The translations under genes were made by a program, and so were the position numbers. Shown here in pieces: positions 16,100 to 19,000 of a DNA stretch of 64,000 nucleotides (positions are counted from its first letter, which is position 1; each line of letters begins with the position of its first letter). The notes below the pieces were generated by a model that had not been told where the DNA came from, searched no databases, and worked only from the letters and a program-made list of their open reading frames with translations. Source of the DNA: Branchiostoma floridae (Eukaryota > Chordata > Leptocardii > Amphioxiformes > Branchiostomatidae); NCBI RefSeq assembly GCF_000003815.2, contig NC_049982.1, positions 8,242,542-8,306,541 on the forward strand. The letters run 5' to 3'.

Positions 16100-19000
16100 C
16101 TATCGCATCTTGTAGTTGGTGGAGGCGGACAGTTCTCCCAGCTCCCCCTTAAACTCCACATCAATGCTGAAGTCCAAGTCTCTCTGGAAAGTGAAACATA
16201 TACAAGTGAATCACTGAAACCTTGCCTCACATTACATGTCAGGCAGTCATAGATATGACTGAACACGGAGTCCTATTCAATTTAATGTCATGAAAAATAA
16301 TAGAACCTTTGTTGTAGCCGGGCTTGTTAACGATTTTCAAGTTTGCTACAGAATTTCTTATTCAACCTCAGATAAAAAGAGCCAGTAAGGTGTGTACTAA
16401 AACTTTTCTAAAGGTGTGTACTAAAACTTTTCTATGCGCTAAAATGTTTACGTTAAGTGCAACAGTGCACCCTAAACAATTTCAAGCCCTGCCTGCACAT
16501 GAACTTTACCTTCACCACTTGTTATACTTCATGTACATGTACTACCATGTACAATACAAGCCATTGGGAGAAATAGTGGCCATATGTCACCCAAGTGTTG
16601 CAGGCTGGTTTGATCACAAGCCAGGCAAGGTTGGAGGCAGGTAGACAAATTAGAAATACCTGCAAGTCCTCCAACTGTCAGCAGGTGGCATTTTGAGCAC
16701 TAACATGTATGGTCATGTGTAGTGGAATGTGTGGAATTGTTAGATTAGAAGAGTCAACTCCAAAAAAAATTAAACATAATTTAGCATCAGCATGACTCTT
16801 ACATTGTTCCTCTTGTTGGGCCTCATGTTGAAGGTGCCGTAGATCTCCTCCCCCCGCTTCACAGTGAGGTAGTCCTCCATGTAGAACACTGTCTGCTTCC
16901 AGTGGGTGTAGTGGGCCTCGGGGGCTACAGGGGCGAACAGGGAACGTTATAAATGATAACAATTGAGACTATCGTGTAAATGCATTGATTTCAAGGTAGG
17001 GAGAAAATAGAGTTTTTGTTGTGGTTTTAAGTTCGCAATAGCGCTATAGTCACATCCCGTATGGCAATGTGTATGTGTTGAAAACTGCGAACATAAACGC
17101 TGCCAAAACCAAGAACACAAAACCACCACTAGATATGACTTCCCACAAGTAGCCATTGTTCAGTCCTGTCTTCAGGAAGGTCTGATCATCATATGAGTGG
17201 ATCAAACCTTTAGACTGCATCAATCTTTTTTTCATTGACTCGCAAAAAAAGAAAAGAAAAGCAAGGTTGTATTCTTAATTAAAACACAATACATTTCCAT
17301 TGTGAAGACCTACCCGTGGAAAAGCCGGTGCGCTTGTGGCACTTGGTGAACTCCACGTTGAAGAAGCAGACCAAGGCGTGGACATAGTCGTTCCGCCGGC
17401 ATTGGAGACAGAAGGGCGAGGTGAACTGTAGGTCCTCGATCTTACATGTGTTGATGTCCACCTCCTGAAGAGAACACAGAAGAAACAGGGTTGTTGGCAG
17501 GTATGGCAACGCCACACCAACAAACACAGACATCCCCAAATGTACCAGTATTCATTAGAACTAGAGAAGGTCCTGGGTAGATTGTTTTGTGGTCCCTGCC
17601 TTTAACTTAACCATTTGTTTACAGTCAAAACTGCTCAAGGGGACCACTCAAGACAAAAAAAAATTTGGTCTTTGTGGACAAATCGTCACTTTAGACAGTA
17701 TTCTTAATGCTTGATTCAATGGCAAAAACTGTTGGAGGAACCATAGGCCAGGTGGTCCTTATTTTGTGTAAAGATGGTCACTTGTACAGGTTTGACTGTT
17801 GCTACATTGAAAGCAAGATGATGGCTATCCAGTATGTAGTGAAATTTAAAAGGTTAACATGACAATTTAAACCTTACACAACCTTACACATTGTTTTATA
17901 CACTTGCTGTCTGATTCTGATGGTAGCACAGCACGATCTGACAGTTGCAGAAGTACATTGCGAGCAGAACCGTTGCACCGTTTTTGTTTGCTTCCCTTGT
18001 CCTCCATTAGTAAATACAAGTCCACACACCTTCAGGAGGCACGAGTTGGTAACGACATGCCTGGCCGACACCACGTCCACGGTCGGCTCCTGGATTACCA
18101 GCGGTCGCATACACGCCATGTTAAACCCATACACATCATTGGCCCACCCTGGAGTGGGACAGAAACAGGACACAGATGGGACGAGAGGAAGGAAAGCGGA
18201 CCCACCTTGACCAGACACGAGTTGCTGACCACCTGTTTGGGATCTACTACGTCCACGAGTGGCTCAGTGACGGCCACCTTGCGTATACAGCTCATGTCAA
18301 ACCCATACACACTGTCCCACCCTGCAAACACAACGTGTAATACGGGTTTTCATCCTCCTTACTTACTTACACGCACACACCACAGCAAATTTGTCGGTTA
18401 AGGCGGAATAAATTGTCACAAATTTGATAGTCCAACCATTGTGAATTTTCCAAAGGAAAGTAGGGCAGATTTAGTGTGGACTTATCTTCTAATGCAGAAG
18501 CAATACCAAATGTGTTCAAGGAAAATGTATGTTTGACCTGTTTCAAATGTTTTACCTTATTCAAATTTGCCTTGCAACATTCCATAACTAAAAATTCATT
18601 GACTGAAATAGGTAAGATTTTTTTCAACATTATCTTGTATAAACCTTTCTTACGCCCAAGGCTGGTTTTAAAATGTTCATTCTAATTGAACAATGGTGTT
18701 GCTGTCAAAACACAGAATCATAAGTCAGGCTAAAAAATCCAAATAATTACAAAGTAACACCATTTCTGTACTCAAGCCAGATCCTCTGCAAATCAATTCA
18801 GCTGGTAGCCCCAACCTTTATTTCTTTTCATTGCTTTGATAAAACATTTCCAGAGCCAGCCACAGTGCATGGAAGACTATAAGCTTCCAATTCAGAGATT
18901 TTGTGATTACATGTTAGAGTAGAACATTCCTAAAGTAAATCATGTCTGACACACATGGAATTCGCACATCGAGGCAACAAAAGTTGAATTACGATGCAAT

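Follow-up and report, generated by a model that had tools for sequence, protein, structure and literature searches.

Organization of the PRMT1 gene

The analysed window, a 64,000-nt stretch of the genome of the lancelet Branchiostoma floridae, carries on its minus strand an intact and complete PRMT1 gene (positions 33589-16100), which, as spliced in silico, has ten exon positions, the seventh of them doubled. The coding part of exon 1 (33572-33589), specifying MAEQME, is followed by exons 2 (25115-25255), 3 (20753-20908), 4 (20364-20427), 5 (19942-20087) and 6 (19252-19339), the last base of exon 6 opening the first tryptophan codon of exon 7. An intron of 930 nt (18322-19251) leads to exon 7B (18206-18321; 116 nt), which encodes a vertebrate-like version of the dimerisation arm of the enzyme (39 residues, 205-243). 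Behind a very short intron of 57 nt (18149-18205; 75% pyrimidine) lies a second candidate for the same position, exon 7A (18030-18148; 119 nt), whose predicted product is an alternative arm of 40 residues, i.e. one codon longer. Each of the two exons is bordered by AG and GT sites, and each is entered in phase 1 and left in phase 0. A 565-nt intron (17465-18029) separates exon 7A from exon 8 (17314-17464), which is followed by exon 9 (16803-16924) and exon 10 (16100-16183, including the stop codon).

Splicing in silico through exon 7B gives a protein of 361 residues, and through exon 7A one of 362. The former aligns with human PRMT1 at E = 5e-190 over query residues 14-361, and the Pfam PRMT_C model scores 227.8 bits with 7B and 216.7 bits with 7A, both values lying above the cut-off.

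Two sets of inverted repeats accompany the gene. Intron 1 contains a pair of 41-nt arms (28215-28255 and 28442-28482) that are 93% complementary and 186 nt apart, which we take, as a guess, to be a small non-autonomous DNA transposon. Beyond the PRMT1 stop codon, slightly more than 100 nt downstream on the strand of the gene, there is a nested structure with outer arms at 15789-15836 and 15939-15986 (48 nt, 83%) and inner arms at 15842-15862 and 15911-15931 (21 nt, 86%).

Two versions of one segment

A preliminary description of this DNA had proposed that two adjacent exons encode alternative versions of residues 205-243, with intact splice sites, equal phases and no stop codon. The coordinates (7B, 18321-18206; 7A, 18148-18030) and the peptides were confirmed, as was each of these properties. 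In both exons the first two bases complete the first tryptophan codon and the last base closes a codon, the donor sequence that follows being GTGGGT for 7B and GTGTGT for 7A. The identity of the two peptides, previously put at about 21 of 38 residues, needed a small correction: with one codon of 7A omitted, we counted 22 of 39 residues (81 of 117 nt). Human PRMT1 shares 29 of 39 residues with 7B, which had been called nearly vertebrate-like, and 21 of 39 with 7A.

The 7B peptide recovers 7A within the window at E = 3e-13, so that their likeness exceeds chance. The 7A peptide in turn matches the arms of PRMT1 and PRMT8 in the PDB (E of about 5e-10 to 7e-10), and PRMT3 structures match it as well. 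When the whole assembly was searched with the 39-residue protein segment, three places were found, namely 7B, 7A and, on another contig, the arm exon of a locus that we named lancelet PRMT3 from its best PDB match.

This PRMT3 arm exon (L012, 1501-1620) ends at the same codon and in the same phase as exon 7 of PRMT1, its start lying further upstream. The shared end suggests that the right-hand intron position may predate the exon duplication. Amphioxus is reported to possess every mammalian PRMT but PRMT8 (chicken/PRMT8 paper); the accessible part of that paper makes no mention of an exon pair. A Pfam PRMT_C search of the assembly returned 20 matches at E <= 0.1. In three of them the match extends over the first half of the model's arm part (7B, 20-59; 7A, 23-61; PRMT3, 1-68); a fourth, on contig C7, begins at position 36. 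Other lancelet PRMTs showed no second arm exon in this search, which would miss distant arms. Paired matches near 17627282 and 17637612 on contig C2, and near 7568314 and 7570777 on contig C7 (L019-L022, L030, L032), suggest that other PRMT genes have been duplicated in tandem.

Predicted consequences for the dimer

The activity of PRMT1 requires dimerisation and is severely impaired by single substitutions in the arm (PMC8592882). In the human dimer a plug formed by W215, W216, V219, Y220, F222, D223 and M224 enters a pocket of the other subunit, where W215 is held by a cation-pi contact with K68, Y220 by a bond to L67 or T73 and D223 by a bond to N133, and F222 is lodged between M104 and F105 (PMC12272085). 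All seven plug residues fall within exon 7, in keeping with the earlier proposal that the segment forms most of the dimerisation arm; the exon does not, however, comprise the entire arm. Y208 and Y211 of the human enzyme are named as arm residues (PMC11681865). By alignment, their counterparts are located in exon 6. The end of exon 7, in turn, runs into the barrel of the PRMT fold.

Exon 7B keeps all seven plug residues and exon 7A six, D223 being replaced by N; in addition, the plug loop of 7A is longer by one residue between W216 and V219. The socket residues L67, K68, T73, M104 and F105 (exon 3) and N133 (exon 4) have identical counterparts in lancelet PRMT1, as read from the human alignment. 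Since the socket is encoded by constitutive exons, it would be common to both isoforms, and only the plug would be swapped. The clearest departure of 7A is found at the base of the arm, where DPKQ (241-244) of 7B gives way to SARH. At 241-242, 7A lacks a D and a P that 7B has in common with human PRMT1, human PRMT8 and lancelet PRMT3.

The PRMT3 chain 1f3l, which we take to be the rat protein, has N at position 223 and M at 227, like 7A, and DH at the arm base, so it too is without that P. Position 223 is occupied by K in lancelet PRMT3 and in the other PRMT3 sequence compared. The presence of N223 and M227 in 1f3l indicates that a PRMT arm can work with these residues.

It is conceivable, but unlikely, that the exon pair is real and that the enzyme made with 7A cannot dimerise, or poisons dimers, so that splicing would act as an off switch; this is a variant of the reading that we prefer, and its odds overlap with those of the latter. 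The additional residue within the plug loop and the rewritten arm base would fit such a switch, as would the sensitivity of the rat enzyme, in which each of the single changes W197L, Y202N and M206V impairs oligomerisation, AdoMet binding and activity (PMC8592882). However, W197, Y202 and M206 (rat numbering) are retained in 7A as well as in 7B, and N223 and M227 have the precedent of 1f3l. Moreover, exon skipping of the kind reported in human cells would yield a dead arm without the maintenance of a second exon. With six of the seven plug residues kept, 7A is less likely to have lost the ability to dimerise than to have preserved it.

We expect, as judged from the residues retained, that 7A would provide a second arm that is dimer-competent but retuned. 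Provided that both exons are expressed, the chances are about even that both isoforms dimerise and differ in dimer strength, in AdoMet coupling or in the path of the substrate. A more elaborate scheme, which we put forward tentatively and consider rather doubtful, is that a single gene supplies two pools of PRMT1 with a shared socket and different plugs, and that tissue-controlled splicing sets the ratio of homodimers to mixed dimers and their strength, and hence AdoMet binding and the range of substrates. The methyltransferase would then be controlled at the level of splicing, via its dimer interface.

Reading frame, spacing and splice signals

The two exons had been described as mutually exclusive, and their anatomy (splice forms assembled in silico, splice sites and phases) supports this view. 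Exon 6 would be joined either to 7B or to 7A, and then to exon 8. Among five splice forms constructed in silico, those with 7B only and with 7A only are open, and the other three stop early: at codon 261, inside 7A, when both exons are included; at codon 205, at the junction, when neither is; and at codon 280 when the 57-nt intron is retained. The length of each exon is 2 modulo 3, and for this reason messages containing both or neither run into an early stop. Such messages would be expected to be degraded, which could constitute one lock on the choice between the exons.

The other lock may be provided by the 57-nt spacing, which would sterically hinder the joining of 7B to 7A. No other of the gene's ten introns is as short: the rest measure 276-8316 nt, and in lancelet PRMT3 the six introns that were measured span 139-464 nt. 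About 50 nt is needed between a donor and a branch site, and splicing is lost in vitro at 46 nt (PMC6692369). In so short an intron an internal branch point would lie less than about 50 nt from the 7B donor, and splicing from 7B to 7A would consequently be hindered. Sites at least 8 nt from the 3' end of this intron lie at most 49 nt from the donor. Counted from the 7B donor, the intron has adenine at three positions only (+29, +51 and +56); the one at +51 is 6 nt from the intron end, and that at +56 is part of the terminal AG, which leaves +29 as the best placed, in a non-consensus context. A branch point situated further upstream, within 7B, would exclude the joining of 7B to 7A too. In OGDH, the choice between exons 4a and 4b is enforced because the branch points lie 25-41 nt from the donor (PMC7969005). 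On the other hand, intron 7 of human HNRNPH1 is removed although it measures 56 nt and its branch site lies 27 nt from the donor (PMC8363638), which implies that steric exclusion is not absolute.

The acceptors of both exons are unusual. That of 7A has a pyrimidine-rich tract (14/17), and neither a YTNAY nor a TNAY motif occurs in the 100 nt upstream of the exon. The acceptor of 7B has the fewest pyrimidines (10/17) of the nine acceptors scanned, exon 10 being excluded, and its sole YTNAY motifs are 77 and 88 nt away. For comparison, YTNAY is found 22-39 nt upstream of exons 2-6 and 9, and for exon 8 only at 91 nt. These features would fit regulated use of the two exons, although they do not prove it. 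By a human matrix, the donors of 7A and 7B score 9.4 and 9.8, values that lie among those of the other eight (3.2-10.4). A scan of three introns for eight patterns of regulator motifs revealed none that was clearly enriched, the lowest P value being 0.052 before correction.

Taken together, frame and spacing lead us to favour mutual exclusion of 7B and 7A. Steric hindrance, degradation of double and empty messages and expression of both exons are processes that we infer.

Is exon 7A maintained?

Exon 7A differs from 7B at 31% of nucleotides, and despite this it keeps both splice sites and the frame, has no stop codon and shows a single, in-frame indel of 3 nt. The dN/dS ratio between the two exons is 0.38, a value that mixes constrained 7B with 7A. 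In lineage-aware neutral simulations, the chance that 7A would be free of stops and retain 11 or more of the 15 family sites was 0.003 with all 36 differences placed on it, and 0.015, 0.04, 0.08 and 0.15 with 30, 26, 23 and 20 of them. Exon 7A retains 11 of 15 family-invariant sites as compared with 8 of 19 other sites (Fisher P = 0.07). Of the amino-acid changes that could be assigned to one exon, 10 belong to 7A and 2 to 7B. In our opinion 7A is probably functional, although the statistical evidence is weak and the patterns of substitution alone are no proof of constraint.

Intron 2 of the same gene offers a comparison, since it contains partial copies of exon 3, comprising its acceptor and beginning (21053-21444, minus strand), i.e. 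the products of incomplete exon duplication. The two main pieces, both gapped, are located at 21168-21053 (94/117 identical, about 71 of the 156 nt of exon 3) and 21279-21194 (70/87 identical, about 50 of 156 nt). In the larger one, gaps of 1 nt and 4 nt sum to three. Together with at least two shorter pieces (21310-21288 and 21444-21410) they form a tandem array of incomplete exon starts, which demonstrates that pieces of exons duplicate here without becoming exons. They are, however, a weak comparison for 7A, because they are partial and have no donor.

It is against this background that 7A might be regarded as a slowly decaying duplicate without function, rarely if ever spliced in and readable by chance. 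We consider this improbable. Its larger share of the assigned amino-acid changes, the upstream region devoid of YTNAY and TNAY, the presence in the same gene of incomplete, unused-looking exon 3 copies, and the lineage-aware simulations, which allow chance with a probability of up to 0.15, are all in line with decay. Against it stand the splice sites, frame, phase and open reading, all kept through such divergence with one in-frame indel, and the six of seven plug residues that have remained.

A quite improbable role for 7A is that of a poison exon, included together with 7B so as to bring in a stop codon and lower the output of PRMT1. The stop of the double form does lie inside 7A, with further exon junctions downstream; but a poison exon has no need of an open PRMT1 arm frame, the double form is disfavoured by the 57-nt intron, and 7A by itself gives a complete protein.

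Finally, the nucleotide sequence around the pair was compared with the 513-Mb assembly of 431 contigs. A DNA search with the 361-nt stretch found one place, the stretch itself, although a sequence that such a search fails to match need not be rare. There is no sign of a second haplotype copy or of a retrocopy. The introns flanking 7B and 7A share short matches only, the longest of 14 nt (E = 0.002), and no duplication breakpoint was therefore found. Lancelets are highly polymorphic, and two haplotypes of exon 7 might in principle have been set side by side during assembly, but the chance of such an artefact is negligible, given that agreement at 81 of 117 nt is far below allelic identity, that the flanks match so poorly and that the stretch has a single place in the assembly.

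On balance, we regard it as fairly likely that 7B and 7A arose by tandem duplication and are used in lancelet PRMT1 as a mutually exclusive pair.

Comparison with known systems

If this interpretation is correct, the pair would show that a highly conserved enzyme is able to acquire a splice switch at its oligomer interface. The second natural arm, with its inserted plug-loop residue and rewritten base, would also be a ready variant for finding out which parts of the arm determine dimer strength, AdoMet coupling and the range of substrates. Exon pairs of the tandem, mutually exclusive kind are already well known, among them that of lancelet FGFR (PMC5703972). A swap of the PRMT1 arm was not found in searches of the open PMC literature.

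Diversification of PRMT1 through splicing is in itself documented in humans (PMC8619983). The variants v1-v7 arise from alternative 5' exons, and 58 further variants have come from sequencing; the accessible text of this source does not describe a duplicated arm exon. The closest parallel within the gene is the human form lacking exons 8/9 (Patounas et al. 2018, cited in PMC7235173), in which splicing likewise acts on the dimerisation arm. According to this source the arm is deleted there, whereas in the lancelet it would be replaced from a duplicated exon.

With respect to the mechanism, the locus would resemble the OGDH 4a/4b pair (PMC7969005) and alpha-tropomyosin (cited in PMC6692369), in both of which neighbouring alternative exons are described with less than about 50 nt between the upstream donor and the branch point. 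In OGDH, as in lancelet PRMT1, the combined length of the pair is not a multiple of three. The difference is that the branch points are mapped in OGDH, while in lancelet PRMT1 the proposed position has no consensus site.

The IIIb/IIIc exons of amphioxus and vertebrate FGFR genes (PMC5703972) are the nearest counterpart in a lancelet gene, as they too are tandem-duplicated, mutually exclusive exons that swap a segment engaged in interaction. In the FGFR case, as reported there, the switch changes affinity for the ligand and its regulator, Esrp, is known; the PRMT1 pair is without a known regulator, and its switch would concern the pairing of the enzyme with itself.
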